Assembly: GCF_008195825.1 (NCBI RefSeq)
Contig: NZ_CP043329.1
Span: 2,666,001 to 2,730,000, forward strand
Direction of reading: 5' to 3'
Length of the DNA stretch: 64,000 bases
From: Pedobacter aquae
GTDB taxonomy: Bacteria; Bacteroidota; Bacteroidia; Sphingobacteriales; Sphingobacteriaceae
Part shown: in pieces, positions 1,126 to 43,725 of the stretch
Numbering within the stretch: position 1 is the stretch's first letter
How the letters are laid out: every line of letters starts with the position of its first letter
Made by a program: the position numbers and the translations under genes
Notes under the pieces: model-generated
Seen by the model: only the letters and a program-made list of their open reading frames with translations
The model's database searches: none
Told to the model about the DNA's origin: nothing

Positions 1126-1162
1126 CATGATTAAAGGCTTTATACCATAATCTTTTATTTAA

Positions 1163-1477: not shown

Positions 1478-1499
1478 ATTAGTTATTTCATTTTAAAAC

Positions 1500-2062: not shown

Positions 2063-2073
2063 ATTTTATTCAA

Positions 2074-3210: not shown

Positions 3211-3228
3211 TTATTTATTCTTAATATA

Positions 3229-3946
3229 TTAAAATGGAATGTTGGGATGTCTTTTTTGGAAAATTGGAATGTCAAATCTTCCCTTTAAAAATTCATTATC
3301 CTTAGTTCCGTTTATTTTCCTATTTGTATTTATCTAGTTTGGAATGTTGGAATGTTTTCTTTGGAAAATTGGAATACCAAATCTTCCCTTTAAAAATTCA
3401 TTATCCTTAGTTCCGTTTATCTTACTATTTGTATTAATCTAGTTGGAATGTTTTTTTTTTGGAAAATTGGAATGCCAAATCTTCCTTTTAAAAATTATTT
3501 TCCTTAGTTCCGTTTATTTTACTATTTGTATTTATCTAGTTGGAATGTTTTTTTTTGGAAAATTGGAATGCCAAATCTTCCTTTTAAAAATTATTTTCCT
3601 TAGTTCCGTTTATCTTACTATTTGTATTAATCTAATTGGAATGTTGGAATGTTTTCTTTGGAAAATTGGAATACCAAATCTTCCCTTTAAAAATTCATTA
3701 TCCTTAGTTCCGTTTATTTTACTATTTGTATTTATCTAGTTGGAATGTTTTTTTTTGGAAAATTGGAATGCCAAATCTTCCTTTTAAAAATTATTTTCCT
3801 TAGTTCCGTTTATTTTCCTATTTGTATTAATGTTTTTTTTTGGAATGTTGGAATGCCAAATTTATCCTTTTAAAAATTATTTTCCTTAGTTCCGTTTATT
3901 TTCCTATTTGTATTAATGTATTTAATTGGAATGTTGGAATGCCAAA
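3229..3946. repeat. Tandem array, seven ~95-115 bp units
   Basis: Seven copies are countable from the segment CCTTAGTTCCGTTTAT (near 3299, 3407, 3501, 3597, 3700, 3797 and 3885). Each unit has one or two TTGGAATG octamers, GGAAAATTGGAATGCCAAAT, an A/T-rich stretch, CCTTAGTTCCGTTTAT and TTGTATTAATCTAGTT-like sequence. Units differ by small indels. The CCAAAT...TTAGTTCC segment resembles the 3' end of the neighbouring four-helix-bundle gene, which reads CCAAATTTATCCTTTATAA at 3943-3961 and CCCAAGTTCC at 3971-3980. The units therefore look like decayed copies of the gene's 3' end plus its terminal repeat. The 737-nt gap holds no credible gene. Confidence 0.85.
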
Positions 3947-3947
3947 T

Positions 3948-4358
3948 TTATCCTTTATAAAAACTATCATCCCAAGTTCCATCTTTCATTTTCTTTTGTA
4001 ACGATTTTATTAATTGTATTAGAGCGTTTTCTATTTTATAATGCAATTGATCTAATTTTTCAAAATCACTTTTAATTATTTGATTAGCTTTTAAGAAACT
4101 ATAAATACATGAATGGTATTCTCCACTGGATCCTAAAGCTATATTTAAAAATTGCAGATATTCTTTAATACTTCTTCTGCAATAACCTTCTGCAATATTT
4201 CTACTTATACTATGTGCACTATCAATGCAATTACTTGCTGTTTTTTTTAACTCAAATGGGAAATTTGAAATTATTTCACATGATATCGCATACAAATCAA
4301 TAGCATCACTCCAGACTCTTAACTGTTTATAACCTCTATTAATATTATTACGTTCCAA
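3948..4358 (-). CDS. S23/IVP-like four-helix-bundle protein (copy 1)
   Basis: This 136-residue protein belongs to the four-helix-bundle family first seen in intervening sequences of 23S rRNA (S23/IVP, Pfam 23S_rRNA_IVP). Hallmarks are YKQLRVW near the N-terminus, SRNIAEGY (about residues 52-59) and the ALGSSGEY helix (about 74-81). The family's function is unknown. The start appears to be TTG (4358-4356), since no ATG is in frame before YKQLRVW. Copies 2 and 3 in this window end at 120 and 117 residues. This one has a C-terminal extension ending GTWDDSFYKG, and DNA resembling that end recurs in the adjacent tandem array. TTGGAATG-type repeats in opposite orientations bracket the gene. Confidence 0.8.
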   Translation of the reverse strand: MERNNINRGYKQLRVWSDAIDLYAISCEIISNFPFELKKTASNCIDSAHSISRNIAEGYCRRSIKEYLQFLNIALGSSGEYHSCIYSFLKANQIIKSDFEKLDQLHYKIENALIQLIKSLQKKMKDGTWDDSFYKG

Positions 4359-4445
4359 GTTATTATTAACGTTTTATGCTTTCTTCTTAAAACTCATGGT
4401 AGCAGAACAAAATCTTTCCAAATTCCAGATTATACTACATTTTTG

Positions 4446-4463
4446 TTCCATTCCAATATTCCA
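4446..4463. repeat. Inverted partner of the TTGGAATG terminal repeat
   Basis: TTCCATTCCAATATTCCAA here is the near-complement of the GGAATGTTGGAATG octamers on the other side of four-helix-bundle copy 1. The gene is therefore bracketed by inverted short repeats with an 8-nt period. This repeat abuts the stop codon of rfbA (4469). Confidence 0.6.
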
Positions 4464-4468
4464 AAAAA

Positions 4469-5341
4469 TTACAAAATCTTACCCTCAACAATATCCATTA
4501 AATATGTGCCATAACCACTTTTTACTAATGGTTTTGCTAAGGAAGCTAGTTGTTCTTTATTGATAAAATTCATGCGGTAAGCAATCTCTTCTATACAACC
4601 AATTTTTAATCCTTGCCTATCTTCTATCACCTGTACAAATTGTCCAGCTTGCATTAAAGATTCAAATGTACCTGTATCTAACCAAGCTGTTCCTCTACTT
4701 AAAACTCCCACTTTTAATTTACCTTGTTCTAAATAAACTTTGTTAATATCGGTTATTTCGAGCTCTCCCCTTGGAGAAGGTTTTATGTTTTTTGCTATTT
4801 CAACCACAGAATTGTTATAAAAATACAATCCTGGTACTGCATAATTTGATTTTGGTTTAATTGGCTTTTCTTCTATAGATTTTGCATTACGATGCTCATC
4901 AAACTCCACAACACCGTAGCGTTCTGGATCATGAACAGGATAAGCGAAAACTACTCCACCATCAGGATGGGTATTGGCTTGCATTAACCTTGCCATTCCA
5001 TCTCCAAAGAAAATATTATCTCCCAAAACTAAGGCAACCGAGTCATGCCCAATAAATTCTTCCCCAATGATAAAGGCTTGTGCTAAACCATCTGGAGAGG
5101 GTTGTACAGCATAAGAAAACTTACAACCTAAATTGGAACCATCTCCTAGTAATTTTTCAAAACCTGGTAAATCGTGAGGGGTTGAGATAATTAAAATCTC
5201 ATTAATACCAGCTAGCATTAATGTAGAAAGTGGATAATAAATCATCGGTTTATCATAAACCGGCATCATTTGCTTACTTACCGCCAAAGTAAGAGGATGT
5301 AAACGTGTTCCTGAACCTCCTGCTAAAATAATTCCTTTCAA
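4469..5341 (-). CDS. rfbA: Glucose-1-phosphate thymidylyltransferase
   Basis: This enzyme makes dTDP-glucose from dTTP and glucose-1-phosphate for dTDP-rhamnose and related sugars. It is 290 residues long, the normal length. The nucleotidyltransferase signature [11 protein letters not shown] is at residues 8-18, with the [19 protein letters not shown] segment next to it. [11 protein letters not shown] carries the metal-binding Asp, and later [18 protein letters not shown] and [14 protein letters not shown] are family motifs. rfbB, rfbC and rfbD are not in the window. A candidate promoter lies just upstream. Confidence 0.96.
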
Positions 5342-14526: not shown

Positions 14527-15247
14527 GCTGATAGTTAACAACCTTATTTAAACCTATAAGAACCAAATGAGGTTCTGTAAGTATTTGGTGGGCAAAGATG
14601 CTATTTTTCAATCTAGTATCAAAAAACGATGCATCACCGCCACATAGTATAATTTTAGTTTCAGGATGTTGATTTAAATAATGATTGATGCATCCTGTAA
14701 CTTCAAAAATCAATCCGTTTATAACGCCACTTTGTAAAGCTTCTTTTGTTGAAGCTCCGTAAAAAGCGTTGTTATGTTCATCTAAAGTTACTAAAGGCAA
14801 CTTTCCGGTGAACTCATGCATGGCTTTAAACCGCATTTGTAAACCCGGGGAGATGCTTCCCCCTTTATATTCTTTTTGTTTGCTTATTAAATCGTAAGTG
14901 ATGCAAGTGCCTGCATCTATCACTAAAACATCTGTATTGCTAAATAAATGATTTGCTCCTATTACTGCTGCTAACCTATCTAAGCCTAATGTTTCTGGCG
15001 TTTGATACAGATTTTGAATAGGGATTTTAGTTTGATGGCTAAACTTTAAAACAGGAACGCCTATGTTAAAAGTAAAATCTTGTTTTACCGAAGCGTAAAT
15101 AAGCTGTTTGATAGCGTGTTTTTGTACTATCTTATTTAAGTCTTCTTCTTTAAGCTGTGCTACTTTTGTAATAGATACTAATTTGTCATCCTCAAAAACT
15201 GCAATTTTTGTAAATGTATTACCAGTATCTATGACTAGGTTAGCCAT
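14519..15247 (-). CDS. coaX: Type III pantothenate kinase
   Basis: This enzyme phosphorylates pantothenate, the first step of CoA synthesis. It is 242 residues long. The ASKHA phosphate motif is IDTGNTFTKIAVF (residues 5-17). ETLGLDRLAAVIGA and VLIDAGTCITYDL-type segments (LVIDAGTCITYDL here) are hallmarks, with GGSISPGLQMRFKAM next. Its ATG overlaps the purQ stop as TAATG, indicating translational coupling. Confidence 0.95.
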   Translation of the reverse strand: MANLVIDTGNTFTKIAVFEDDKLVSITKVAQLKEEDLNKIVQKHAIKQLIYASVKQDFTFNIGVPVLKFSHQTKIPIQNLYQTPETLGLDRLAAVIGANHLFSNTDVLVIDAGTCITYDLISKQKEYKGGSISPGLQMRFKAMHEFTGKLPLVTLDEHNNAFYGASTKEALQSGVINGLIFEVTGCINHYLNQHPETKIILCGGDASFFDTRLKNSIFAHQILTEPHLVLIGLNKVVNYQHD

Positions 15248-15939
15248 TAAGCATTCACCATTTTTAAGATAGATTCAAATAAAGGCAAGCCATCTTGATT
15301 TCCTAAAATAGCATCAGCGGCTCTTTCTGGGTGCGGCATCATTCCAAAAACGTTTCTCCCTGCATTACAAACACCTGCAATATTTTCTATAGAACCATTA
15401 GGATTAGCTTCTTCTGTGATATTTCCTACTGCATCGCAATATCTAAATAATACTTGGTCGTTATCATTTAGCTTTTTCAATTCATCAGCATGAGCGTAAA
15501 AATTACCCTCGCCATGCGCTATAGGAATATTTAAAACCTGGTTTGGAGCTATTGCCGATGTTACCAAAGAGTTTTGTGTTTGCGCTTTTAGGTAAACATT
15601 TTTGCAAATGAACTTTCTGTTGGTATTGTGTAATAAACCACCTGGTAGTAAACCTGCTTCTGTTAAAATTTGGAAGCCGTTACAAATACCCATTACATAA
15701 CCACCTTTATTTGCGAAAGCAATAACTTCTTGCATGATAGGAGAAAAACGAGCAATTGCACCAGAGCGTAAGTAATCACCAAAAGAGAAACCTCCCGGTA
15801 AGGCTATAAAATCTACATTTTGTAAATCGTGGTCTTTATGCCATAAAGGAACTACTTCTTGTCCAAGAATTTTATCGAAAACATAAATTAAATCCTGATC
15901 ACAGTTAGAACCCGGGAAAACTACTACGCCAACTTTCAT
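15247..15939 (-). CDS. purQ: Phosphoribosylformylglycinamidine synthase subunit PurQ
   Basis: This is the glutaminase subunit of FGAM synthase in purine synthesis. The 230 residues form a class I glutamine amidotransferase. The nucleophile is Cys86 in [26 protein letters not shown] precedes it, and the HGEGNFYA and MPHPERA segments supply the His and Glu. A separate PurQ implies the small-PurL/PurS form of the enzyme. A TAGTTTTG -7-like box lies in the 130-nt upstream gap. Confidence 0.95.
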
Positions 15940-16069
15940 TTTTCTTTTGATTATCAGGCTAAAACAGCCTGTAGATTTTAAAAAATTTTATTGAATATAC
16001 TCGTTAGCAAAACTAACTAAATTTTGATTTTATTTGGCCGACTATCTGTTAAAAAAAGTTAAAGCGCTG

Positions 16070-17047
16070 TTACACAAACTGGAAATAAACGACAAAACCA
16101 ATGATGCATAGAAAAAGAGGCTCGTAAAACCACTTTTTATTTGCCTGCAGAAAGTAATATGCCAATAAGGCCGAAACCGGAATTACAGCCAGATGAAAAT
16201 GATTGATACGGTAATCTGGTTTTAGATAAAAAGTAAAGGCCGCTATGATAAAAATAAAAAACAGCAGCTGAAAAGTTTTTCTAACCTGCACAAAACTTTT
16301 GAAAAAATTCTCTCTGAGATGATAAAAACCCAACAGCAAACCAATGGCAATGGGTAATAATACAATGTAATCTTGAAGCTGAATTCTGACAAAAATTGGA
16401 AAAGCACTAGTTAAAGGTCTCCAAATGGCGTAAAAAGCAGCTAGTTTATCATTCCAGAAATAGTAGACTCCTAGAAAAAATATGATGGTACAAAAACCCA
16501 ATATAACGGCTATCCACTCTCGCCAGTTAAAAGGCCTAAAAATGAGTAAGGCTAGCCAGAGTATCAAAATCATCCCGATAAAGGGGAAATAAAAAATGGT
16601 GCCTATAGCGGTAACCATGCCTAAATCAAACATGGTAGTTATAAATGCCATGTCTTTTGATGGAGCAAGTATGCGATAAACCATAAAAAGCAAGAAAAAA
16701 TTGCAAATTAATGGTGGCGATAAAAATAGAAAAGGTGTAAATACACTTGAAGAAACAATATAAACCAAAGCAGGTAAAAATGTTGATTTTCCTATAATAT
16801 TGAAGGTATTTACAATTCTGTTAAACAATAAAGCTTGTATAAAAACTACAATAGCAGCAAGCGTTACATTGGTAAAAGGCGTAAAGATGGTGTCTGACTG
16901 GGAAATTAATAAGCGATTGCCTACTTCAGAAAAACCTGTATTGATGCTTTCTGGTAGTTGAACATACAAACCAATTCTGAGTATATAAACCAGAAAAAAT
17001 AAGACGAACAGGTTAATAAAATTTAAGCTTCTAAATTGTCCTATCAT
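16070..17047 (-). CDS. Polytopic membrane protein (DUF6427-like)
   Basis: This 325-residue protein has about nine to ten predicted membrane segments and few charged residues. It resembles the DUF6427 proteins found next to this glycosyltransferase in related bacteria. The family name is a recognition call, not a search result. It lies 34 nt downstream of the glycosyltransferase gene, so a joint role in an envelope glycan is possible. Confidence 0.6.
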   Translation of the reverse strand: MIGQFRSLNFINLFVLFFLVYILRIGLYVQLPESINTGFSEVGNRLLISQSDTIFTPFTNVTLAAIVVFIQALLFNRIVNTFNIIGKSTFLPALVYIVSSSVFTPFLFLSPPLICNFFLLFMVYRILAPSKDMAFITTMFDLGMVTAIGTIFYFPFIGMILILWLALLIFRPFNWREWIAVILGFCTIIFFLGVYYFWNDKLAAFYAIWRPLTSAFPIFVRIQLQDYIVLLPIAIGLLLGFYHLRENFFKSFVQVRKTFQLLFFIFIIAAFTFYLKPDYRINHFHLAVIPVSALLAYYFLQANKKWFYEPLFLCIIGFVVYFQFV

Positions 17048-17081
17048 TATGGCAAATATAATTATTTAGCCCTAATAAGAT

Positions 17082-18071
17082 TTACTGCCTGTAGGTATTC
17101 ACTACTTTTTCTACAATAGCAGCCGTTTGGTTGGGGAAATCAACTTTAATTTTAAAGTCTTCTTTTATCCAAGTGTCTAAGTAAGAAACAAATTTCTTAT
17201 TGATATCATTCACCACTGGCACACCCATTAAACGGGCAGCTTCTGCATTACACTCTTGCTCAAACTGGTATTTCATAGGTACTAGCAAAACTTTTTTGCC
17301 GAGATATAAAGCTTCTGCAGGTCCTTCAAAGCCACCTCCGGTAAGTAAGCCTTCACAATTTTCTAAGCTCTTGTTATAATCATTGTTGGTGATAGGTTTT
17401 ACCCAAACATTAGCATATTGATAAGGCGTTTTTTGATGCTTACTAAATACATGCCACCTTACTTTAGGAAATAGATGAAGATATTTTACCAGAATCTTAT
17501 CATCAACAGCAGGCAGATAAACAGTGTAATGACCAAAATTTTTGGGGTTTAATGCTCTTATTTCACTTCTGATAACGGGGGTATAGATAAAATCATCGTA
17601 AGGTTGAAAATGAAAACCCACATGATCTGTTGTTGGGGCATAATATTTTAAAATCCACTCGGCATATAAACCTTTTTTTAGTGGCCTAGGAGTTTTGTCT
17701 GAAATAAAAGCAGCTTGATGACTTAAAGATACGCTGCGCTTACCCTGTAATTTACAAGCCCAAGCGGTTAGGGGTTCAAAATCGTTGATAATTAAATCGT
17801 AATCGTTTAAGGGAATACTACGCATATCTTTCCAAAACCTGCGTAAATTCATTAATTGATAAGATTTCCAATGGTCTACCCCACCTTTTTTTCCAAATAC
17901 AAAACTAAAACCATGAAACTGATACTTCACTTCTTGCTGTAAAGTAATATCAGCTTGTGTACCGCTAACAAGAATATCTAATTCGCCATACTGCTGTAAT
18001 AATGGCACAATTTCTTTTGCCCTGCTGATGTGGCCGTTTCCGGTTCCTTGTATAGCGTAGAGGATTTTCAT
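17082..18071 (-). CDS. Glycosyltransferase, MJ1255/VC2487-type GT-B family
   Basis: This is a 329-residue GT-B type enzyme. It opens with KILYAIQGTGNGHISRAKEI, the motif of the MurG-like MJ1255/VC2487 family. LTGGGFEGPAEALYLGKKVLLVP is the C-terminal nucleotide-sugar binding segment. The acceptor is unknown. A heptad repeat array lies 12 nt upstream of the start codon, where a ribosome-binding region would be. Confidence 0.82.
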   Translation of the reverse strand: MKILYAIQGTGNGHISRAKEIVPLLQQYGELDILVSGTQADITLQQEVKYQFHGFSFVFGKKGGVDHWKSYQLMNLRRFWKDMRSIPLNDYDLIINDFEPLTAWACKLQGKRSVSLSHQAAFISDKTPRPLKKGLYAEWILKYYAPTTDHVGFHFQPYDDFIYTPVIRSEIRALNPKNFGHYTVYLPAVDDKILVKYLHLFPKVRWHVFSKHQKTPYQYANVWVKPITNNDYNKSLENCEGLLTGGGFEGPAEALYLGKKVLLVPMKYQFEQECNAEAARLMGVPVVNDINKKFVSYLDTWIKEDFKIKVDFPNQTAAIVEKVVNTYRQ

Positions 18072-18083
18072 AGACAGTATAGC

Positions 18084-18150
18084 GTATTGAGTAGTGGGTA
18101 TGGAGTAGTAAATATTACGTAGTGGGTATTGAGTATGGAGTATGGAGTGA
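18084..18150. repeat. Heptad repeat array (GTATTGA type)
   Basis: Nine consecutive 7-mers follow without slippage: GTATTGA, GTAGTGG, GTATGGA, GTAGTAA, ATATTAC, GTAGTGG, GTATTGA, GTATGGA, GTATGGA. The array fills the gap between the LpxH-like gene and the glycosyltransferase and ends 12 nt before the latter's start codon. Confidence 0.85.
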
Positions 18151-18175
18151 ATTTCATCGATGATAAAAATAAAAT

Positions 18176-19012
18176 TTAAGCTACACTTTGTGTGAATTTT
18201 TTAAATAATTCTTTAATATCCATTTTAGATTGGGTGTCTTCAAACTCGTCTTCTTCTTTTTCTGTGTAAGCTGCCCCATCGTATTTATAAATGCTCCAAT
18301 TGCCATGATGGTATTCTAAGGATGTTAAACTTTCTACCCAATCGCCAGAATTGAGATAGGTTACTTGCCCTTTTTCATTTTGGATATTTCGCATTTCTGC
18401 ATGGTGTATATGCCCGCATATTACGTATTGATAATTTTTCTCGATGGCTAAATCGGCAGCAGTTTCTTCAAACTGATTGATGAATTTTACGGCTTCTTTA
18501 ACGCTTGCTTTTATTTTTTGCGAGAAACTGTATTTTTTTCTACCCATTTTTACTAAACACCAATTTACAAAGCTGTTGATGAGGATAAGTGTATCATAAC
18601 CTACAGCGCCTAATTTTGCTAACCATTTAGAATGTTGCATGGTTACATCAAAAATATCGCCATGAAAAAACCAGACTTTTGCCCCATCCACATCTAAAAC
18701 CAATTTATTTAAAAGTTGAAGTCCGCCCATGTTAAAATCTGTAAACTTACGTAGCATTTCATCGTGGTTACCGGTAAGGTAATACACCGGAGTTCCATCT
18801 GTTACAAACTTTAGAATTTTTCTGATGACTTTGGTGTGCGCCTCTGGGAAATAGGATTTACTAAACTGCCATATATCAATAATATCCCCGTTAAGGATTA
18901 AAATTTTAGGGTTTACGCTTTTTAGGTACTTCAATAATTCTTTGGCATGGCAGCCATAAGTTCCTAAGTGAATATCAGAAATTACCAGAATATCTATCTC
19001 TCTTTTTGGCAT
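18176..19012 (-). CDS. LpxH-like metallophosphoesterase (UDP-2,3-diacylglucosamine diphosphatase family)
   Basis: This 278-residue calcineurin-fold enzyme has metal-binding motifs in order: ISDIHLG (residues 11-17), LNGDIIDIW (about 40-48), GNHDE (about 81-85), FFHGDIFD and VICGHIHHAEM. The relatives cleave UDP-2,3-diacylglucosamine in lipid A synthesis, or are of related unknown specificity. A tiny membrane-protein ORF lies 12 nt upstream. Confidence 0.85.
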   Translation of the reverse strand: MPKREIDILVISDIHLGTYGCHAKELLKYLKSVNPKILILNGDIIDIWQFSKSYFPEAHTKVIRKILKFVTDGTPVYYLTGNHDEMLRKFTDFNMGGLQLLNKLVLDVDGAKVWFFHGDIFDVTMQHSKWLAKLGAVGYDTLILINSFVNWCLVKMGRKKYSFSQKIKASVKEAVKFINQFEETAADLAIEKNYQYVICGHIHHAEMRNIQNEKGQVTYLNSGDWVESLTSLEYHHGNWSIYKYDGAAYTEKEEDEFEDTQSKMDIKELFKKFTQSVA

Positions 19013-19024
19013 ATCCTAAGGAAT

Positions 19025-19129
19025 TTAATCTTCTTCTTCCTCTATGCGTAATTCAAAAGGACTGAAATAGAAGATAATGACTGCTAAAAGTGCTATAGCA
19101 ATTAAGAAACCATCATAGATATGTATCAT
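19025..19129 (-). CDS. Putative 34-residue single-pass membrane protein
   Basis: ATG at 19129-19127 and TAA at 19027-19025 enclose 34 codons. The product has a short N-terminus (MIHIYDG), a hydrophobic helix (FLIAIALLAVIIFYF, residues 8-22), then SPFELRIEEEED, a strongly acidic tail. This layout is what a small inner-membrane peptide looks like. It is in the same direction as the LpxH-like gene and 12 nt ahead of it. No homologue is recognised. Confidence 0.5.
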   Translation of the reverse strand: MIHIYDGFLIAIALLAVIIFYFSPFELRIEEEED

Positions 19130-19203
19130 ACATCGTTGTTTTTTCAAAGTAACAATACTAAGATTAACAACAAGTTAAGTAGTGATTAAGTTTAGTTTTT
19201 TGA

Positions 19204-19238
19204 GTAGAAAGTTAAAGGTAGAAAGTACAGAGTATAAA
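19204..19238. repeat. Heptad repeat array (GTAGAAA type)
   Basis: Five 7-mers in a row: GTAGAAA, GTTAAAG, GTAGAAA, GTACAGA, GTATAAA. It lies in the 185-nt gap between the small membrane ORF and the DinB gene. Nothing else is evident there. Confidence 0.7.
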
Positions 19239-19314
19239 GACCCTAAATTCGGATATTTAGGAGCTACTCTTAAATAATTTAAAGAAACCTTTGTACGAAA
19301 CAGCAATTTTTAAT

Positions 19315-19809
19315 CTACAACTGCTTAACATGATGTTTAGTATGTACCACCATAAAACGCAGCCAATTTTTAGCGTCTAAATAACCTAATCTAGGATGTT
19401 TAATTTTATAATGGGTATCAAAATTTTTAAAATCTGCTTCTAAAGCGGGTAGTTTTCTTTTAAGATTGATGATTTGATTTGCAGCATCTTCTAAACTGAT
19501 ACGCTCTACCTTAGCAGCAACAGCTTCTGGGGCTTTAATCTTACCTGGAGGGAAAACTCCGAAAAATAAAATGAGTCTAACTCGCCAATCGGGTTTATTG
19601 GTTTTAATATGAGCAGTTCTGTTTAAGCAATTTTCTGTCGCAATAGCTGCTGTTTTATTTACCCAAATGACATGTGAATAAACTTCTGAAACCGACCAAA
19701 CATTTGCCTCTGGCTTAGCAAAAAAATCATCTTCATGAATAGCTTTTAGGTATGCCAGGTAATAATCTAACAGTTTATGTAATGATTTAAAATTTGCTCT
19801 TACACTCAT
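19315..19809 (-). CDS. DinB-like superfamily protein
   Basis: This 164-residue four-helix protein matches the DinB/YfiT metalloenzyme-like fold. The metal-binding His residues would be His46 (SEVYSHVIWV) and the C-terminal HTKHH cluster (about residues 157-161). DinB-like proteins include thiol-dependent transferases, and the substrate here is unknown. The start overlaps the YjjG stop by 4 nt, indicating coupling. Confidence 0.8.
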   Translation of the reverse strand: MSVRANFKSLHKLLDYYLAYLKAIHEDDFFAKPEANVWSVSEVYSHVIWVNKTAAIATENCLNRTAHIKTNKPDWRVRLILFFGVFPPGKIKAPEAVAAKVERISLEDAANQIINLKRKLPALEADFKNFDTHYKIKHPRLGYLDAKNWLRFMVVHTKHHVKQL

Positions 19810-20498
19810 AACAAAGCTTTTAGTTCTGATAAATGATTGATATGCACATCAACATCTTCGGGTATGGTAAGCTTATTTGGATTAAAATAAATAGCATCCA
19901 TACCTATATTTTTAGCCCCTCTTATATCGGCTTCTATGCTATCACCAATCATGATACTCTCATGGACAGCGCCACATGCTAAGTTTAAAGCATGTTGAAA
20001 AATAGCCTTATCCGGTTTATTGATTCCTACTACTTCTGATATAATGATATTCTTGAAATAAGGCTTCAAATTGGTATTTTCTACTTTATACTCGGTAGAT
20101 TCTTTAAAACCGTTAGATATTAGATGTAAATGATATTTCTCATGCAGATAGGTTAAAACCTCATGCGTATGAGGAAACAAATTGGTTTTGGTAGGACAAA
20201 TACGTACATAATCATCCTCGAAAGAGATAGGTACTTTAGTTTCATCAATGCCTAAATCAATAAAAGTTTTTCTAAAACGTGTTTCTCTGAGTTCTTGTTT
20301 TGAGATTTCTCCTAAATGGTATTTAGCCCATAACTGATGATTATTAGCCGTATAAGTTTCAATTAAAATATCGGGGGAATGTAAGCCCAATACTTTTAAT
20401 TGATGATGATGGTATAATTCATAAATGGTTTCTTCTGCATTTTTATCAAAATCCCAAAGGGTATGATCTAAATCGAAGAAAATATGTTGGTATTGCAT
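19806..20498 (-). CDS. yjjG: YjjG-type HAD nucleotidase
   Basis: This 230-residue HAD hydrolase has nucleophile and acid Asp9 and Asp11 in FFDLDHTLWDF. SNGFKES is motif II, Lys in GINKPDKAIF is motif III, and MIGDSIEADIRGAKNIGM is motif IV. YjjG-family enzymes dephosphorylate non-canonical pyrimidine nucleotides. A heptad array ends 3 nt from the start codon, and this gene overlaps the DinB gene. Confidence 0.88.
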   Translation of the reverse strand: MQYQHIFFDLDHTLWDFDKNAEETIYELYHHHQLKVLGLHSPDILIETYTANNHQLWAKYHLGEISKQELRETRFRKTFIDLGIDETKVPISFEDDYVRICPTKTNLFPHTHEVLTYLHEKYHLHLISNGFKESTEYKVENTNLKPYFKNIIISEVVGINKPDKAIFQHALNLACGAVHESIMIGDSIEADIRGAKNIGMDAIYFNPNKLTIPEDVDVHINHLSELKALL

Positions 20499-20501
20499 GT
20501 T

Positions 20502-20578
20502 CAGTTGTCGGTTATCAGTTGTCAGTTGCGGGTTATCAGTTGTTGGTTTTCAGTTATTAGTTGCGGGTTATTAGTTTT
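20502..20578. repeat. Heptad repeat array, left side of four-helix-bundle copy 2
   Basis: Eleven consecutive 7-mers share GTT at positions 3-5: CAGTTGT, CGGTTAT, CAGTTGT, CAGTTGC, GGGTTAT, CAGTTGT, TGGTTTT, CAGTTAT, TAGTTGC, GGGTTAT, TAGTTTT. It runs from the start codon of yjjG to the stop codon of four-helix-bundle copy 2, with 3 nt and 1 nt to spare. Confidence 0.9.
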
Positions 20579-20579
20579 A

Positions 20580-20942
20580 TTATTTTGGGGTAAGTGATGC
20601 GTAATATTTTATAAATCCACTTAACAATTTTCTTGATTTTTGTAATACTTCTAACTTTCTTTCTAAGCTTTCTTGATTAATAAAGCCAAGATCATAAACT
20701 AAGTATAGCTGCGTTTCGAGCTCATATAAAGATCCTCGGGCGATATAAAAAAACCTAATAGAATCCTTTTGAGTTTCTCTGCCGCACCCTTCTGCTATAT
20801 TAGACGGAATGGATATCGCCGCTCTTTGAATTTGTGAAATAAGTCCGAACTTTTCAGAATCTGGAAATAATCTCGTCATTTCATATATAACTTTCACCAA
20901 ATATCTAGCTTCTTTCCAAACTTCTAAATCGGTATAATTCAT
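20580..20942 (-). CDS. S23/IVP-like four-helix-bundle protein (copy 2)
   Basis: The 120-residue product has the family N-terminus YTDLEVWKEA (residues 3-12), the signature SIPSNIAEGCGRET (about 49-62) and ARGSLYELETQL (about 73-84). The family's role is unknown. Relatives include ORFs in 23S rRNA intervening sequences, and the fold resembles Avd of diversity-generating retroelements. The gene is wedged between upp and yjjG. Inverted heptad arrays (20502-20578 and 20994-21035) bracket it and fill most of the space between the two host genes. Confidence 0.88.
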   Translation of the reverse strand: MNYTDLEVWKEARYLVKVIYEMTRLFPDSEKFGLISQIQRAAISIPSNIAEGCGRETQKDSIRFFYIARGSLYELETQLYLVYDLGFINQESLERKLEVLQKSRKLLSGFIKYYASLTPK

Positions 20943-20993
20943 TATCTCTTCAAAAAATTATTTTACGTAATAAAAAAGCTTCGCCAAAATTCA

Positions 20994-21035
20994 GGAACTG
21001 GAAACTGTCAACCGGCAACCGGCAACTGATAACCC
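20994..21035. repeat. Heptad repeat array, right side of four-helix-bundle copy 2 (inverted)
   Basis: Six 7-mers in a row: GGAACTG, GAAACTG, TCAACCG, GCAACCG, GCAACTG, ATAACCC. CAACTGATAACCC is the exact complement of GGGTTATCAGTTG in the left array, so the two arrays are inverted. It ends 1 nt before the upp stop codon. Confidence 0.88.
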
Positions 21036-21036
21036 A

Positions 21037-21678
21037 TTACACTTTTTCTCCAAAGGCTAAATCTCCGGCATCACCCAAACCGGGTACAATATAAGCTTTG
21101 CTGGTCATCTCTTCATCTATAGCTCCTAACCAAAGTTTGGCTTTTGGTAAATGAGCTTTTACATGTGCTACACCAACCTGGCTGGCAATGGCCGATACGA
21201 TATGTAAATCTTTAATCTTATAATTTGCCATCAATTCTTTGCAACAAAGTACCATACTTTGGCCAGTGGCCAACATAGGGTCGGCAATAATTAAAGTTCT
21301 TCCATCTAAATCCGGAGTAGAGAAATACTCCATTTTTATGATGAAACTACCATTCTTTTGCGTTTTCCTGTAAGCAGCAATAAAAGCAGAATCGGCTTTA
21401 TCAAAATAGTTCAGTAAACCTTGGTGTAAAGGTAAACCGGCTCTTAAAATGGTTGCTAAAACAGGCTGATTTTTAGTTAAATTTATATTGGCCAAGCCTA
21501 AAGGTGTTTGTACTTCAAACTCTTCATAAGTGAGCGTTTTGCTGATTTCGTAAGCAAAAATCTCCCCTAAACGTTCCATATTTCTTCTGAAACGCATGCT
21601 ATCTGTTTGTACATCTACATTTCTAAGTTCTGCTAAAAAATGGTTAGCTATGGTATTTTGCTGGCTGAGTATGAACAT
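21037..21678 (-). CDS. upp: Uracil phosphoribosyltransferase
   Basis: This enzyme salvages uracil with PRPP to UMP. It is 213 residues long. ATILRAGLPLHQGLLNYF and the PRPP loop LIIADPMLATGQSM are diagnostic. GAIDEEMTSKAYIVPGLGDAGDLAFG is the uracil-binding C-terminus. The four-helix-bundle element follows directly. Confidence 0.94.
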   Translation of the reverse strand: MFILSQQNTIANHFLAELRNVDVQTDSMRFRRNMERLGEIFAYEISKTLTYEEFEVQTPLGLANINLTKNQPVLATILRAGLPLHQGLLNYFDKADSAFIAAYRKTQKNGSFIIKMEYFSTPDLDGRTLIIADPMLATGQSMVLCCKELMANYKIKDLHIVSAIASQVGVAHVKAHLPKAKLWLGAIDEEMTSKAYIVPGLGDAGDLAFGEKV

Positions 21679-21712
21679 GCTATAAATTTACAATTTTTAC
21701 CCCTTCCGTTTA

Positions 21713-22984
21713 TCATTTATTTGTGTTGCTGGCATTTTCTAATAACTTCATATAAACCGGTTTCCAAGCTTTCCAAACGCCAAAGTTGCTTAAAGACTCG
21801 TTATGCCAAAGGCTAATGAAAGTACCGTTTACATTTTTCACTTCCTGAATGAGCTTATTTAAAACTTCTGTAGCCTCCTGAGGTTTTAAACCGAGGTAGC
21901 TTCTTAAAGTTTGATCCATCACTACAGTGGGAAAAACTTTTAAACTGGTGCTACGCTCTGTTTTTAAATTATACCAATAAAAAGGGGTACAAGTTCCTGC
22001 TCTAAAACCTATATCATCGGCGTAAGCCATAGAATAATCTTCTGTTATACCGGCTTCTAAAAGATTCTCAAAGGTTTCTGGCAAATTAAATTTCAAGTAA
22101 TGTTGCCTGCTTTTTTTGATAGGATGTTGAATAATATCTTCTAAAGCTTGTTTTTCTTTTAAAACTTCTTCTTGGTGGATATGACTTTCATAAGATGGAT
22201 GAATACCTAGCTCATACCCCAGCGCTAACTTGCTTAAAAGTTTTCTAAACTTTGGGTTGTGGTTATCAGGCGCTACATCAAACTGATGTTTATTCCCCAT
22301 TAAAATAAAATATTGGGTTTGGGTTTGATAATATTTATCCCACTGAGCAACTTGCTTATAAACATCAAAAGGATCTGTGAATTTTCCTTTTAACAAGGAT
22401 TTAAACTGTTTTAAAATCCTCCTAGTAAATTTCTCTGTTTTAAAATAATAAGGTCTATCTATATCTAAGGTGGGGATAAACTTGAATTGGCGTTTTTGAA
22501 AAGCTAAATCAGGGTAATAATTGTGTATAATGTTTAAAATATCATAAGCCCAAATATCTATTACTGGTTTATGTAAAAATGAATTTGCTTTCGAGATGCT
22601 ATATTTTGCTGGAAAACGTCTGTGCTGGTCTCGCCCTTTATTGGTATATTCCTCGTATCGGCTTAATAAATAAAAAGAAGCAGCAAAAACATCAAATGGC
22701 ATAACCGATGATTGTACAGGGAAAAATACTTGCACATCATGATAATCTATACTCACTAAATCTTGATGTTTAAGTCCTAACTCATCTAAAAGACCATAAG
22801 ACTTAAAATGGATTTCATCAGCTAAAGCCTCGGGAGCATAACTTATTTTAGGCCCTTGATAATTAGAAAACGTAGATGCATCATCCAGAACTTGGTGGTT
22901 AATACCCAACACCTGGCTAAACAAGAAATCAAAAATATATTGTTTCCTGCTATTTAGCTTGGGTGTATAGATGAGCAGTTGCAT
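21713..22984 (-). CDS. Polysaccharide deacetylase-fold protein
   Basis: This 423-residue protein resembles Bacteroidota proteins annotated as polysaccharide deacetylase family. An N-terminal region of about 170 residues is followed by FIPTLDIDRPYYFKTEKF, the NodB-like metal-binding start. GYELGIHPSYESH and FRAGTCTPFYWYNL are later barrel motifs, and SLWHNESLSNFGVWKAW closes the barrel. The substrate is unknown. It is separated from upp by 34 nt. Confidence 0.75.
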   Translation of the reverse strand: MQLLIYTPKLNSRKQYIFDFLFSQVLGINHQVLDDASTFSNYQGPKISYAPEALADEIHFKSYGLLDELGLKHQDLVSIDYHDVQVFFPVQSSVMPFDVFAASFYLLSRYEEYTNKGRDQHRRFPAKYSISKANSFLHKPVIDIWAYDILNIIHNYYPDLAFQKRQFKFIPTLDIDRPYYFKTEKFTRRILKQFKSLLKGKFTDPFDVYKQVAQWDKYYQTQTQYFILMGNKHQFDVAPDNHNPKFRKLLSKLALGYELGIHPSYESHIHQEEVLKEKQALEDIIQHPIKKSRQHYLKFNLPETFENLLEAGITEDYSMAYADDIGFRAGTCTPFYWYNLKTERSTSLKVFPTVVMDQTLRSYLGLKPQEATEVLNKLIQEVKNVNGTFISLWHNESLSNFGVWKAWKPVYMKLLENASNTNK

Positions 22985-23139
22985 GGCTAAAAATAGAGAT
23001 AATATTGAGATTTCTTACGAAAATCAGAAGATGATAATTTCATCAGTTATTTGATAATCTGGAAGTTACTATTAAGTATTTTATTTATATTTGTTTAACC
23101 TCGAAAAAACATCTCGCTTAATTACAGAAATTTTATTAA

Positions 23140-23290
23140 CTCAAGTCCACGTATAACCCACGTATACCCCACCTTTTATCCACGTTTTATCCATACTTCC
23201 TTCGAAGCTCCTCCTGAGCTTCTCCAATCCCCCTTAGGAAAAATGGGGGTATTTCTCGAACAAGTCTCGAACATGGTGCGAAGAAGGTGA
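23140..23290. other. Structured non-coding segment in a 370-nt gap
   Basis: The gap 22985-23354 has no ORF that looks real. Inside it are near-repeats of CACGTATA and CCACGTTTTATCCATAC. A perfect hairpin with arms GAAGCTC and GAGCTTC follows (near 23203-23221), then one with arms CCCCC and GGGGG (23229-23249), then two copies of TCTCGAACA. The layout suggests a dispersed repeat or a structured RNA. I cannot assign it to a family. Confidence 0.4.
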
Positions 23291-23354
23291 AAAGCTGAAA
23301 ACTTTATTATCCGCAAATCGCTTTATAATTTTGAAGAATGTTATAGGAAAACCT

Positions 23355-24065
23355 CTAGCTATTCGTTGTTTTGGTTGGTCTTACTTCTACTTTACTAGGC
23401 AATACTCTTGGGTGCATATTTAATAAATCTACCACCATTTGGCCCATGTCTTCGGGTTGTATTTTCCATGCATCTTTTTCAGTATTGGGTTCATGCTCGT
23501 TAAAATGGGTAGAAACAGAACCTGGCATAATGGTACTTACTTTAATGCCGTATTGCCTTAAATCTAACATAATAGCCTGCGTAAAACCTACTAAACCAAA
23601 CTTGCTAGCATTATAAGCTGCACCACCAGCAAAGAAATTTGTTCCTGCTAAACTGGCAATGGTAAAAATATAACCTGTGGTTTTCTTTAACTCTGGCAAA
23701 GCCGCTTTAATGCTATAAAATACCCCTGTTAAATTGGTGTCTATAGTATCATTCCAATCAGATACGGATAAATCTTCAATACTAGCAAAATGCCCAACAC
23801 CTGCATTGGCAATTAGAAAATCTAATTTGCCCCATTTGGCTATCATTTTATTAATGACTTCTTGTTGAGATGAAAAGTCTTTAACATCGGCTTCTAAAGC
23901 CAATACATCATGACCTAATTTCTGGGCCGCTGCCTCTGCACTAGCCAAACTTCTACTGGTAATAGCTACTTTTATACCTTGTTTAAGTAAAGCTTCTGCA
24001 ATACCAAAACCTATACCTTTGCTTCCGCCTGTTATGAGCGCTACTTTATCTTGTAATTTTTGCAT
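23355..24065 (-). CDS. Short-chain dehydrogenase/reductase
   Basis: This 236-residue classical SDR has cofactor motif TGGSKGIGFGIA (residues 14-25), NAGVG (about 87-91), catalytic Ser in IASLAG and YNASK (about 151-155). The Arg in ITSRSLASAEA suggests NADP preference. The substrate is unknown. The gene is divergent from uvrB. Confidence 0.88.
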   Translation of the reverse strand: MQKLQDKVALITGGSKGIGFGIAEALLKQGIKVAITSRSLASAEAAAQKLGHDVLALEADVKDFSSQQEVINKMIAKWGKLDFLIANAGVGHFASIEDLSVSDWNDTIDTNLTGVFYSIKAALPELKKTTGYIFTIASLAGTNFFAGGAAYNASKFGLVGFTQAIMLDLRQYGIKVSTIMPGSVSTHFNEHEPNTEKDAWKIQPEDMGQMVVDLLNMHPRVLPSKVEVRPTKTTNS

Positions 24066-24199
24066 TGTAAATGTTTTAAGCTATTAAAACAACCTTACAA
24101 TTAAAGTATTGTTTAACAGAAAAAACATTCTATCATTCAAAAGTAAAAAAGCGCCAGTTTTAATCTAAGAACAACACTAAATACTAGCCTATAACGTAT

Positions 24200-24275
24200 T
24201 TAAAATGAGCATCTTCGAATGTTCATTTTAAGGTTCAACAAAGGGGTTTATCTTTTAAAAGCTAAATCCCTTTTT
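24200..24275 (+). promoter_or_regulatory. Two hairpins upstream of uvrB (operator or terminator-like)
   Basis: The first dyad (24200-24231) has 11-bp arms, AAAATGAGCAT and ATGTTCATTTT, around a 6-nt CTTCGA loop. The second (24240-24275) pairs AAAGGGGTTTA with TAAATCCCTTT and runs into TTTTTG, like an intrinsic terminator on the plus strand. No plus-strand gene ends upstream. The pair may therefore regulate uvrB or end a short RNA. Confidence 0.45.
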
Positions 24276-24302
24276 GTTTGGTTAAAGCCTGTTGAAATCA
24301 TT

Positions 24303-24310
24303 TATATTTG
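24303..24310 (+). promoter_or_regulatory. -7 box six bases before uvrB
   Basis: TATATTTG matches TAnnTTTG exactly, and a TTTG lies at 24277-24280. The box ends 6 nt before the uvrB ATG (24317), which would put the transcription start at or next to the start codon. Confidence 0.5.
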
Positions 24311-24316
24311 TTAAAC

Positions 24317-26347
24317 ATGAATTTTAAAATAGAATCTTATTACAAACCTACCGGCGACCAGCCAACGGCCATAAAACAACTGGTTGAGGGCGTTAAAAGT
24401 GGAGAAAATTATCAGACACTGCTTGGCGTAACTGGTTCTGGTAAAACTTTTACCGTTGCCAATGTAATAGAACAAACACAAAAACCAACTTTAATATTAA
24501 GTCATAATAAAACATTAGCCGCACAGCTTTACGGAGAGTTTAAGCAATTCTTCCCTGATAATGCGGTTAACTATTTTGTATCTTATTATGATTATTACCA
24601 GCCAGAAGCATTTTTACCAACAACAAACACCTATATAGAGAAAGACTTACAGATAAATGAGGAGATAGAAAAACTACGGTTGAGAACAACATCGGCTTTA
24701 ATGTCTGGCAGAAGAGATGTTATTGTGGTATCTTCTATTTCTTGTATTTATGGTATGGGTAATCCCGAGGATTTTTCAAACTCGGTTTTTAGATTTGGTG
24801 TTGGTACTCGCATCAGCAGAAATGCTTTTCTGCACCGTTTGGTAGAGATTTTATATTCTAGAACGACCTTAGAATTTAAGCGTGGTACTTTTAGAGTAAA
24901 AGGCGATACGGTTGATATTTATCCGGCTTATTTAGATTTAGCGTATCGTATTTCTTTTTTTGGAGATGATATTGAAGAAATATCGGCTATAGACCCAGCA
25001 TCGGGTAAAACCCTAGAAAAAATGGACCAAGTAGCTGTTTTCCCAGCCAATTTATTTGTTACGCCAAGAGATAGATTTACCAGTGTGCTCCACCAAATTG
25101 GGGAGGATATGGAAAGTAGAAAAAAGCAATTTGAAGGCGAAGGTAGATTTTTGGAAGCCAAACGTTTAGAAGAGCGCACCAATTACGATATGGAAATGAT
25201 GCGTGAATTGGGCTACTGCTCTGGTATAGAAAATTACTCGCGTTATTTTGATGGTAGAACACCAGGGATGCGCCCTTTCTGTTTATTAGATTATTTTCCT
25301 GATGATTACTTAATGGTGATTGATGAAAGTCATGTTACCGTACCGCAAATAAGAGCCATGTATGGCGGAGACCGTTCTAGAAAATTATCTTTAGTAGAGT
25401 ATGGTTTTAGATTGCCTGCTGCCCTAGATAACAGACCTTTAAACTTTAATGAGTTTGAGAACCTTGCCCCACAAACCATTTATGTAAGTGCTACACCCGG
25501 AGATTACGAGCTAGAGAAAACAGAAGGTGTAGTGATAGAGCAAGTGATAAGGCCAACAGGCCTATTAGACCCCTTAATTGAGGTGAGGCCAGTGATAAAC
25601 CAGGTGGATGATTTGTTGGATGAAATAGATAAAACCATTAAATTGGGCGACCGTATTTTGGTAACTACCCTAACCAAAAGAATGGCAGAGGAATTGGCCA
25701 AATACATGGATAGGTTAAATATTAAAGTACGCTACATACACTCTGAAGTAAAAACTTTAGAACGTGTAGAAATTTTGCGTGGCCTCCGTTTGGGCGAGTT
25801 TGATGTTTTAATTGGGATTAACCTTTTAAGAGAAGGTTTAGATTTACCAGAGGTTTCTTTAGTTGCCATTTTAGACGCCGATAAAGAAGGTTTCTTACGG
25901 TCTGAACGTTCTTTAATACAAACCATTGGTAGAGCCGCCCGTAATGACAGAGGCCGGGTTATTATGTATGCCGATAAGATTACCGATTCTATGCGGATTA
26001 CCATGGAAGAAACCGAACGCAGAAGAGAAAAACAAATTAAGTATAACGAGGAGCATGGTATTGTACCTAAAACGGTTGGCAAATCTAGAGAGGCTATTAT
26101 AGAGCAAACATCAGTAGTAGATTTTAAAGGTGGTGTACAACAAACTTATGTGGATAATGCAGAAGTTACACTAGCTGCCGACCCAATAGTACAATACATG
26201 ACCAAGGCACAGCTTAAGAAATCTTTAGATAATACTAAAAAAGACATGTTAGCTGCTGCAAAAGATATGGATTTCTTACTAGCTGCTAAGCTAAGAGATG
26301 AAATGTTTGCTTTAGAAAAAATGATGGAAGAGAAATTTGGAAAGTAA
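24317..26347 (+). CDS. uvrB: Excinuclease ABC subunit UvrB
   Basis: This is the damage-verifying helicase-like subunit of nucleotide excision repair. It has 676 residues from the ATG at 24317; a TTG nine bases earlier is not needed. The Walker A motif GVTGSGKT is at residues 37-44. The beta-hairpin YYDYYQPEAFLPTTNTYIEK inserts between DNA strands. DESHVTVPQ is the DEAD-like box, and TIGRAARNDRGRVIMYAD is motif VI. The C-terminal UVR domain (AAKDMDFLLAAKLRDEM) contacts UvrC. The gene is monocistronic or is followed by the DUF4834 gene. Confidence 0.97.
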   Translation: MNFKIESYYKPTGDQPTAIKQLVEGVKSGENYQTLLGVTGSGKTFTVANVIEQTQKPTLILSHNKTLAAQLYGEFKQFFPDNAVNYFVSYYDYYQPEAFLPTTNTYIEKDLQINEEIEKLRLRTTSALMSGRRDVIVVSSISCIYGMGNPEDFSNSVFRFGVGTRISRNAFLHRLVEILYSRTTLEFKRGTFRVKGDTVDIYPAYLDLAYRISFFGDDIEEISAIDPASGKTLEKMDQVAVFPANLFVTPRDRFTSVLHQIGEDMESRKKQFEGEGRFLEAKRLEERTNYDMEMMRELGYCSGIENYSRYFDGRTPGMRPFCLLDYFPDDYLMVIDESHVTVPQIRAMYGGDRSRKLSLVEYGFRLPAALDNRPLNFNEFENLAPQTIYVSATPGDYELEKTEGVVIEQVIRPTGLLDPLIEVRPVINQVDDLLDEIDKTIKLGDRILVTTLTKRMAEELAKYMDRLNIKVRYIHSEVKTLERVEILRGLRLGEFDVLIGINLLREGLDLPEVSLVAILDADKEGFLRSERSLIQTIGRAARNDRGRVIMYADKITDSMRITMEETERRREKQIKYNEEHGIVPKTVGKSREAIIEQTSVVDFKGGVQQTYVDNAEVTLAADPIVQYMTKAQLKKSLDNTKKDMLAAAKDMDFLLAAKLRDEMFALEKMMEEKFGK

Positions 26348-26386
26348 CATTTCCTACATAAAAAAGTCTTATAAAACATAAAAAAC

Positions 26387-26394
26387 TATATTTG
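26387..26394 (+). promoter_or_regulatory. -7-like box five bases before the DUF4834 gene
   Basis: TATATTTG matches TAnnTTTG and is followed after 5 nt by the ATG at 26400. No good -33 element is seen. Confidence 0.35.
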
Positions 26395-26399
26395 CAATC

Positions 26400-26660
26400 A
26401 TGGGCGGATTATTAAAATTTATCATTATAACCATTTGTGTACTTTATATTTTAAGGGTATTAGCTCGTATTTTCTTGCCTTTTTTATTCAAAAAAGCGAT
26501 ACATAAAATGCAAGAAAAAATGCAGCAACAACAAGGTGGTGCATATCAACAACAAACAAAACCAGAAGGAAAAATCACGGTAGACTATATACCACCTCAG
26601 AAAAAAGAACCTAAGCTAGACAATGCTGGCGATTTTGTGGATTATGAGGAGGTAAAGTAA
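26400..26660 (+). CDS. DUF4834 family small membrane protein
   Basis: This 86-residue protein has one N-terminal membrane helix (FIIITICVLYILRVLARIFLP, about residues 7-27 in part). A charged, Gln-rich middle follows (EKMQQQQGG), then a conserved C-terminus GKITVDYIPPQKK and GDFVDYEEVK. This layout is that of DUF4834, a Bacteroidota family of unknown role. It follows uvrB by 52 nt in the same direction. Confidence 0.82.
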   Translation: MGGLLKFIIITICVLYILRVLARIFLPFLFKKAIHKMQEKMQQQQGGAYQQQTKPEGKITVDYIPPQKKEPKLDNAGDFVDYEEVK

Positions 26661-26667
26661 TCTTAAT

Positions 26668-26727
26668 TTTAACCACAAAGGGTGCAAATATTTAGGACTT
26701 TGCTTTATGCACTCCTTTGTGGTTAAA
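26668..26727. terminator. Bidirectional terminator between convergent genes
   Basis: Long arms TTTAACCACAAAGG and CCTTTGTGGTTAAA, extended by GTGCA/TGCAC with one bulge, form a hairpin. A/T tracts lie on both sides. It sits between the convergent DUF4834 gene and the lipoprotein gene. Confidence 0.8.
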
Positions 26728-26736
26728 TTTTTAAGT

Positions 26737-27168
26737 TTAAAATGGGACACAATCCAAGGCAGTTTTAGCTAAAACTACGTTATCAGATGTGCCAGAACTG
26801 TAATTAATACTAAACTTAAGTTCAGAGGCATTAATACTAGTAATTGTTAAATTATACGTGTTAGTACTACTATTGGCAGCTGTACTTATTAAGGTGATGC
26901 TTTTTCCATCTTCGCTTACTGTATAAGTTAAATTTCTACTGTTTCCTTCAAAACCCCAAGTATCAATAACAGAACCATCAGATTTAAACTCCCAATAAGA
27001 ATCCTCATTAAAACATCTTGAAGTGTTAAACGATTGATAATACCATTTTCCACTTGTCAATAATACTGTCACTCTTTCTTTTTCAGATTGCTCTTCATCT
27101 TTTTTACAAGAAGTAAATACTAATGCTGTACTTATAAACAGCATAAATAGGATAGTTGATTTTTTCAT
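26737..27168 (-). CDS. Lipocalin-like lipoprotein
   Basis: This 143-residue lipoprotein has signal MKKSTILFMLFISTALVFTSC with the lipobox Cys at residue 21. The body fits a small lipocalin-like barrel: the opening LLTSGKWYYQSF, then SYWEFKSDGSVID and LTYTVSEDGKSITLIS. It has two further Cys residues (in SRCFNED and LDCVPF) that could pair. The function is unknown. It stands alone. Confidence 0.75.
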   Translation of the reverse strand: MKKSTILFMLFISTALVFTSCKKDEEQSEKERVTVLLTSGKWYYQSFNTSRCFNEDSYWEFKSDGSVIDTWGFEGNSRNLTYTVSEDGKSITLISTAANSSTNTYNLTITSINASELKFSINYSSGTSDNVVLAKTALDCVPF

Positions 27169-36797: not shown

Positions 36798-36805
36798 TTT
36801 TTGGA

Positions 36806-36834
36806 GTATTGAGTATTGAGTATTGAGTATTGAG
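36806..36834. repeat. Heptad repeat array (GTATTGA x4)
   Basis: Four identical 7-mers GTATTGA run without interruption. They end 8 nt before the argH start codon. The Fic gene begins on the other side. Confidence 0.85.
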
Positions 36835-43719: not shown

Positions 43720-43725
43720 TTTTTA

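Follow-up and report, generated by a model that had tools for sequence, protein, structure and literature searches.

An S23 four-helix-bundle gene with inverted heptad arms between upp and yjjG of Pedobacter aquae: a probable copy of a minimal mobile element akin to rRNA intervening sequences

The closest described relatives of the insert reported here are the intervening sequences (IVSs) of 23S rRNA genes. In Coxiella, according to the excerpt of the published account used here (PMC4990558), the IVS carries an S23 open reading frame (ORF) and terminal inverted repeats that form a 28-bp stem, it is excised by RNase III, and it holds two to three tandem GACAGAT heptamers whose number depends on the strain. 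The same excerpt cites an older proposal that the IVS was once a mobile element, and it describes a homopentameric Xanthomonas relative. Heptamers of the TAACTGA type at start codons have been described elsewhere as direct repeats without a gene and were read as possible translational control (PMC4679880, excerpt). The family PF05635 is described as resembling Avd of diversity-generating retroelements (PMC10053308, excerpt), and a '23S rRNA IVP' is named in a figure legend of a survey of CRISPR neighborhoods (PMC10910872, excerpt). Within the open-licence literature searched, no account was found of S23 genes that lie between other genes and are bordered by inverted heptad arms, and the new point of this study is, within that literature, the joining of single parts that were already known (S23 in rRNA IVSs, TAACTGA heptamers, and the resemblance to Avd).

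The window analyzed in this study is a stretch of 64,000 nucleotides of Pedobacter aquae (contig NZ_CP043329.1). The upp-yjjG junction in it, at 20499-21036 (yjjG start codon to upp stop codon), consists of an S23 gene and two heptad arrays, with the following features.

19806-20498, minus strand: yjjG (name from NCBIfam)
20501-20577, minus strand: focal 3' arm of 11 heptads (array A), inverted with respect to array B and 2 nt upstream of the yjjG start codon
20580-20942, minus strand: S23 four-helix-bundle gene, 120 aa (PF05635/TIGR02436)
20993-21034, minus strand: focal 5' arm of 6 heptads (array B), inverted with respect to array A and 2 nt downstream of the upp stop codon
21037-21678, minus strand: upp (name from NCBIfam)

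The three genes lie on the same strand, and the genes around the junction comprise upp, yjjG, and one DinB-like gene. The focal protein is a member of the S23 family by PF05635 (E 5.3e-38; 129.9 bits against a cut-off of 33.8) and by TIGR02436 (E 1.8e-36; 124.6 bits against 24), and structure 2gsc matches it with an E of 1.9e-24. Between upp and yjjG the S23 gene is the sole listed ORF of at least 60 aa, and the insert has no transposase of its own. The initial annotation of this junction had described an S23-type gene filling it, flanked by heptad arrays of 11 and 6 units in inverted orientation, a left-hand sequence with its exact complement on the right, and array ends 1-4 nt from the host start and stop codons. 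Our analysis agrees on all of these points: GGGTTATCAGTTG is single in the window (20530), as is its exact reverse complement (21023), and both arrays end 2 nt from the host codon. The lag-7 self-match is 43/74 in array A and 26/37 in array B, which was reached by none of 10000 mononucleotide shuffles for either array, and the 13-nt exact inverted match between the arms was reached in none of 1000 shuffles. Considering that these shuffles are simple and that the stretch was chosen for its repetitive look, we regard recurrence at other loci as the stronger evidence.

On the one hand, the focal copy shares with the Coxiella IVS an S23 ORF, complementary ends, heptamers before the ORF, a similar length, and sense orientation to the host transcript, and the intergenic copies hold the IVS parts (S23 ORF, heptamers, inverted ends) in identical order, as far as the excerpt describes them (PMC4990558). 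On the other hand, the focal copy sits in a protein operon and the Coxiella IVS in rRNA; the S23 ORF is under purifying selection in the focal copy but is decaying in Coxiella by the description in that excerpt; and RNase III excision is published for the Coxiella IVS (PMC4990558), whereas in the focal copy it is proposed. The predicted fold of the focal 538-nt transcript is closed by the two arms, which form complementary ends of the IVS type. The focal copy, which carries the S23 ORF, lies outside any 23S rRNA gene, and an Rfam search of window 19700-21800 returned no rRNA and one weak sRNA match (E 0.14). The kinship with rRNA IVSs rests on the published anatomy (PMC4990558, excerpt) and on an Azospirillum plasmid copy (L148), which lies within a full-length 23S rRNA match (1286-4484) and has arms of 36 nt, 86% complementary, with GACGGAT/GACAGAG heptads. 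A single-protein scan for further copies gave one locus, L173.

The remaining known systems share single parts with the focal locus. The focal 3' arm, 2 nt from the yjjG start, has units TCAGTTA and TCAGTTG, the first of which is TAACTGA in reverse complement, and both the focal arm and the published heptamers lie just before a start codon (PMC4679880). S23 and four-helix terms are absent from the excerpt of that paper, whereas the focal array flanks an S23 gene. Avd is a four-helix-bundle relative of S23, and the bAvd and Avd models give weak matches under their cut-offs; membership in Avd was rejected (NF033474, 19.8 against 80 bits). MITEs and REPINs are likewise short, with inverted ends, a location in gene junctions, and geneless versions, but the ends of the S23 element are alike in period and not in sequence, and the gene carried by its full version is no known transposase. 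The suggestion of the initial annotation that gene and array termini form an unrecognized element is supported as regards a minimal mobile element; its anatomy is not wholly unrecognized, because 23S rRNA IVSs have an S23 ORF, complementary ends, and heptamers.

The P. aquae genome has eight PF05635 genes, three of which lie inside the window, and all eight sit in intergenic gaps as judged by eye. The other two genes of the window have the following surroundings.

3235-3947, minus strand: 3' side of the third S23 gene, TTGGAATG units of 8 nt, not 7, within a longer tandem repeat (about 96 nt)
3948-4358, minus strand: third S23 gene (L007), TTG start in the ORF list, PF05635 E 1.3e-18
4412-4467, minus strand: 5' side of the third S23 gene, inverted TTCCAAA/ATTCCAA units (limits by eye; arm score 17.5)
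43725-43760, minus strand: 3' arm of the second S23 gene, units of TTGTAAG/TTTTAGG type (limits by eye)
43762-44115, minus strand: second S23 gene (L001), PF05635 E 6.9e-41
44118-44159, minus strand: 5' arm of the second S23 gene, inverted to its 3' arm (limits by eye; arm score 12.5)

Beside the third gene, this TTGGAATG-containing repeat occupies window 3235-3967.

From 18 congeneric genomes, 91 S23 matches were obtained and 88 loci were used, leaving out one match at a contig end and two second fragments of broken genes. To score the arms, each 5' flank was locally aligned with the 3' flank in inverted orientation, and mismatched pairs from different junctions served as the reference. True pairs had a median score of 13.5 and the mismatched pairs one of 8.0, and true pairs exceeded the 95% mismatched level at 69 of the 88 loci and the 99% level at 51, compared with 25 and 19 when the flanks were aligned in direct orientation. 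The 19 loci under the 95% level include one of the eight P. aquae copies (L004, 10.0 against 10.5), the other seven being above it. When one locus was taken from each of 28 junction groups, the observed mean was 13.9 and the top of 20000 permutations was 10.9. As a control, 51/88 S23 loci reached a score of 12.5, against 10/375 ORFs in a 464-kb sample of the same genome, and two of these ten were S23 genes. The highest inverted score of the 375 ORFs (21.0) belongs to a GIY-YIG gene (1163-1477, minus strand) bordered on each side by repeats of the CCCTTCGACTCCGCTCAGG type, both tandem and inverted (window 900-2063), and thus possibly another small gene with repeat ends; the CCCTTCGACTCCGCTCAGG-type repeats resemble the flanks of S23 locus L126.

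The period of seven also recurs. In the 100-nt flanks (5'/3'), self-match is raised at lags 7 (0.38/0.39), 14 (0.35/0.35), and 21 (0.35/0.35), against about 0.27-0.32 at other lags and 0.25 at lag 7 in a control stretch 500-600 nt upstream. A survey of 127 loci (88 from the genus, 29 from the phylum, and 10 from plasmids) found a strong period-7 segment in 68 5' flanks and 63 3' flanks, period 8 in 20 and 22, and periods 5, 6, and 9 in at most 10. The 5' arms have a median of 5.6 heptads, with 26/68 between 5 and 6. Units of 8 nt occur in some copies, among them the third S23 gene listed above and, by eye, a copy on a plasmid of Gemmatirosa, which has a GC-rich genome (L147, flanks of GGGCAGGA type). 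The heptad unit varies from locus to locus, sometimes among species at one junction, and the arms of one copy are alike. At the same junction, own arm pairs scored a mean of 14.4 and cross pairs 12.0, with equal values in several junction groups. As RNA, the duplex of own arms beats the median of mismatched arms in 72/88 loci and is better than all 20 mismatches in only 27/88.

Beyond the genus, 198 genomes were sampled from the phylum, which we take to be Bacteroidota; 157 of them have PF05635 matches, and the copy number ranges from 0 to 16 across the sample. Among 29 loci of other genera, which are the best-scoring of many more matches, 19 were above the 95% and 9 above the 99% mismatched level, with 10 below 95%, and a Riemerella copy has the same arm-gene-arm layout. 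The initial annotation had made its reading depend on whether S23 genes elsewhere have such inverted arrays, and most of these congeneric and best-scoring phylum loci do. S23 relatives are also present on 27 plasmid records, mostly cyanobacterial, from which 12 stretches were sampled; arm scores were obtained for 10 of them, and L147 and L148 were judged by eye, L148 also by repeat search. Six of the ten scores were above the 95% level and those of L139, L141, L142, and L143 below it, with the arms of L141 in direct orientation; the visible arm units are GGGAGTA, GGGTGTA, GGGAACA, GGGAAAA, and GGTGACA. Plasmid copies lie between cas6 and cas4 (L141 and L149), between cas10 and a cmr3-type gene (L143), and after a TraM-domain gene (L144), and they stand antisense between ribonucleotide-reductase genes (L138) and between ABC-transporter genes (L139); where both neighbors are annotated, 7/9 are sense and 2/9 antisense. 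A phage origin was rejected, since 50,697 phage records gave no S23 match at E 1e-5; in viral contigs, a search reaching close relatives only gave one S23 locus.

Sites with and without the insert were compared at the focal junction and on plasmids. Among the 18 congeners, upp was found in 14: an S23 element stands beside it in four (L150, L151, L154, and L157), upp is next to yjjG without the gene and such arrays in five (L155, L156, L158, L159, and L162), and the neighbor of upp is different in five. The empty junction of L158 has another repeat-like stretch, which is CACAGAG-like. A copy on Trichormus and Scytonema plasmids is absent, gene and both arms together, from the Nostoc carneum and Tolypothrix plasmids, which are about 97% identical. 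The 5-nt sequence GTAAT is single in the empty site and stands on both sides of the insert, the one clean 5-nt case of target-site duplication; the other empty sites have replaced bases. The comparisons of PCC 7003 with PCC 7002 and of Nostoc C052 with two C057 plasmids likewise show the whole unit missing, with replaced bases at an end, and at the site of the Nostoc C052 copy Nostoc ATCC 53789 carries an inverted pair without a gene. In addition, Nostoc C052 pC052_E has a decayed copy at the Trichormus-type place, the Calothrix brevissima insert lies at the last codons of the upstream gene in comparison with three relatives, and Calothrix PCC 7716 and NIES-4105 are too divergent for the insert ends to be defined. 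The initial annotation had allowed that the arrays might be fixed parts of the junction, present without the gene; the five congeners with an empty upp-yjjG junction and the near-identical plasmids lacking gene and arms speak against this.

Copies also differ between close species. At one junction in four of them, L002/L012 and L032/L041 belong to different S23 lineages, by a protein tree of 70/88 proteins (the rest have an internal stop or fewer than 95 aa), and have different arms, while L017, located at a different junction, shares 72-75% identity and the arm unit with L002/L012. At a junction whose neighbors are presumably argC and rocD, two S23 lineages are represented among the copies of three close species, and in G003 the junction is filled by a different inverted-repeat insert (L185, CCTCACCC...CCCTCTCC...GGGTGAGG), of which a piece of about 34 nt matches many places in all four genomes searched. 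At what we take to be a thiolase junction, an S23 element is present in G003 and G007. G000 and G004 carry a geneless inverted pair there, with a unit that by eye equals the one in the S23 element of the adjacent junction; the G000 pair (L177) also has a unit of about 95 nt several times in tandem. Several junctions keep one S23 lineage across species. Over 2257 cross-junction pairs, arm similarity showed no overall correlation with protein similarity (Mantel r 0.05, reached by 207/2000 permutations), and tracking of the protein by the arms at all distances was rejected. At a protein identity of at least 0.65, arms were shared in 5/9 pairs, which are non-independent.

In the genus, the S23 gene is co-directional with both neighbors at 78/88 loci and in 34/42 junction groups. 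Where the neighbors are themselves co-directional, 34 of 35 groups are sense and one antisense (P about 1e-9 for equal odds), with neighbor strands taken from the longest ORF near the gene and not from annotation. A need for read-through expression would be enough to explain this sense orientation. The pooled pN/pS over 15 chosen close pairs, which are non-independent, is 0.12, and by this measure selection maintains the S23 protein; in two plasmid pairs the changes are too few for pN/pS to be judged.

Arm, gene, and arm form a unit that is wholly absent from the compared sites, mostly lies in sense, and has a conserved protein. Considering these results, we think it probable that the insert represents one copy of a minimal mobile element in which a 5' heptad arm and an inverted 3' arm enclose the S23 gene, and that the element belongs to a class that includes the S23-type rRNA IVSs, and the part of this explanation that concerns the element and its IVS kinship appears likely with slightly more assurance. 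Mobility is suggested by comparison of sites, and at any single site loss instead of gain is possible.

The main competing explanation is that the heptad arrays are primary, as regulatory or self-amplifying sequences of the TAACTGA kind, and that S23 genes are passengers settling between or inside them. In the 464-kb sample, 18 intergenic period-7 arrays were found, one being the focal 5' arm and most being without an S23 gene, against 0, 0, 2, 1, 0, and 2 arrays at periods 5, 6, 8, 9, 10, and 11, and these counts are low because the detector, which needs 21/28 lag-7 matches, misses even the 11-unit focal array. Among 13 stretches viewed by eye, several geneless arrays follow a stop codon, as 5' arms do, or precede a start codon, as 3' arms do, and geneless inverted pairs occur at L097 as well as at the thiolase junction and in Nostoc ATCC 53789. 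The idea that arrays are unique to S23 genes was rejected, because geneless arrays outnumber S23 genes in the genome sample. Such arrays, together with the published heptamers in whose excerpt S23 goes unnamed (PMC4679880), favor this explanation, but the compared empty sites are without arms as well as gene, and the arms match each other within an S23 locus. Moreover, of 20 genomes sampled at 90-400 kb (G024 left out) with the same detector, whose counts are low, arrays were present in 7/13 with S23 and 0/7 without (Fisher P 0.044, with GC and kinship uncontrolled), although G141, G082, and G120, with 10, 11, and 13 S23 genes, showed none in the sampled stretches. We give primary arrays a small but real chance, and geneless arrays may be remnants, non-autonomous copies, or a separate phenomenon. 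The window itself contains heptad-like arrays without an S23 gene at 18084-18148, 19202-19239, and 36804-36834. They fall between genes of the same direction, and the first and third directly precede a start codon, as a 3' arm does.

The other explanations concern the means of movement or deny it. If S23 were the cargo of a REPIN-like non-autonomous element that Y1 (IS200/RAYT-type) transposases mobilize in trans, this would fit the short inverted ends in gene junctions and the Y1_Tnp matches in all 18 congeneric genomes. RAYT recognizes defined REP sequences, however, and the S23 ends share no sequence between loci, while the presence of Y1 in every genome would equally fit no involvement; we consider this route improbable. 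Two Y1 matches lie close to upp (G002:C1:799654-799998 and G017:C109:27818-28162), in one congener with and one without the S23 element. A retroelement has also to be weighed, in which S23 would act together with a reverse transcriptase, as its relative Avd does, and the element would move through cDNA. The resemblance of PF05635 to Avd (PMC10053308, excerpt), the weak Avd-type matches, and the sense orientation in operons could be taken in its favor. RVT_1 is present in only 7/18 congeneric genomes, which led us to reject reverse transcriptase as a general need, and it is missing from the single-contig G008 with its 8 S23 matches. The ORF list for 15000-27000 shows no reverse transcriptase next to the focal gene, the sole RVT_1 match of the genome being far from the window at C1:902312, and a retroelement seems very unlikely. 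Slightly less credible still is that S23 genes are old vertical genes, ancestral at these junctions and lost here and there, with arrays arising by local slippage. Purifying selection and the lineages kept across species at several junctions would agree with it, but it is opposed by different lineages at one junction in close species, by the copy number of 0 to 16 across the phylum sample, and by nearly identical plasmids with and without the unit, and slippage alone gives no matched inverted arms.

For the minimal mobile element, we suggest the following course. The element would be transcribed together with the host operon, its arms would pair into a stem in the operon transcript, and RNase III would cut the element RNA out, as published for the rRNA form. 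Such removal would make the insertion tolerable; by analogy with that form, we hold the chances for and against RNase III processing of intergenic copies to be evenly balanced. The S23 ring protein may act on the arms, which may change by slippage and may be kept matched by copying between the inverted arms. Integration could be a rare DNA-level event using a host enzyme, a guess made because RVT_1 is missing from many genomes with several copies, and any particular integration step is proposed with considerable doubt. In a broader and tentative form, S23 elements might be a bacteria-wide class of transposase-less mobile elements, rRNA IVSs being copies that landed in rRNA. The five-subunit ring might then read the heptads, perhaps one per subunit (5' arms most often have 5-6 heptads), with arms kept matched but free in sequence, so that the period and not the sequence is recognized.

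In summary, if the proposed element is true, the annotations 'four helix bundle protein' and 'S23 ribosomal protein', together with part of the scattered heptamer arrays, would refer to one kind of element, and heptad arrays beside start codons would have a source. The old idea that rRNA intervening sequences come from a mobile element would become directly testable through free-standing copies and empty sites. Recognition by period rather than by sequence, which we put forward as a speculative possibility, would be a new principle for the ends of mobile elements. Finally, the element would give a reason for the S23 genes inside cas and cmr operons, where they may be mistaken for functional partners.
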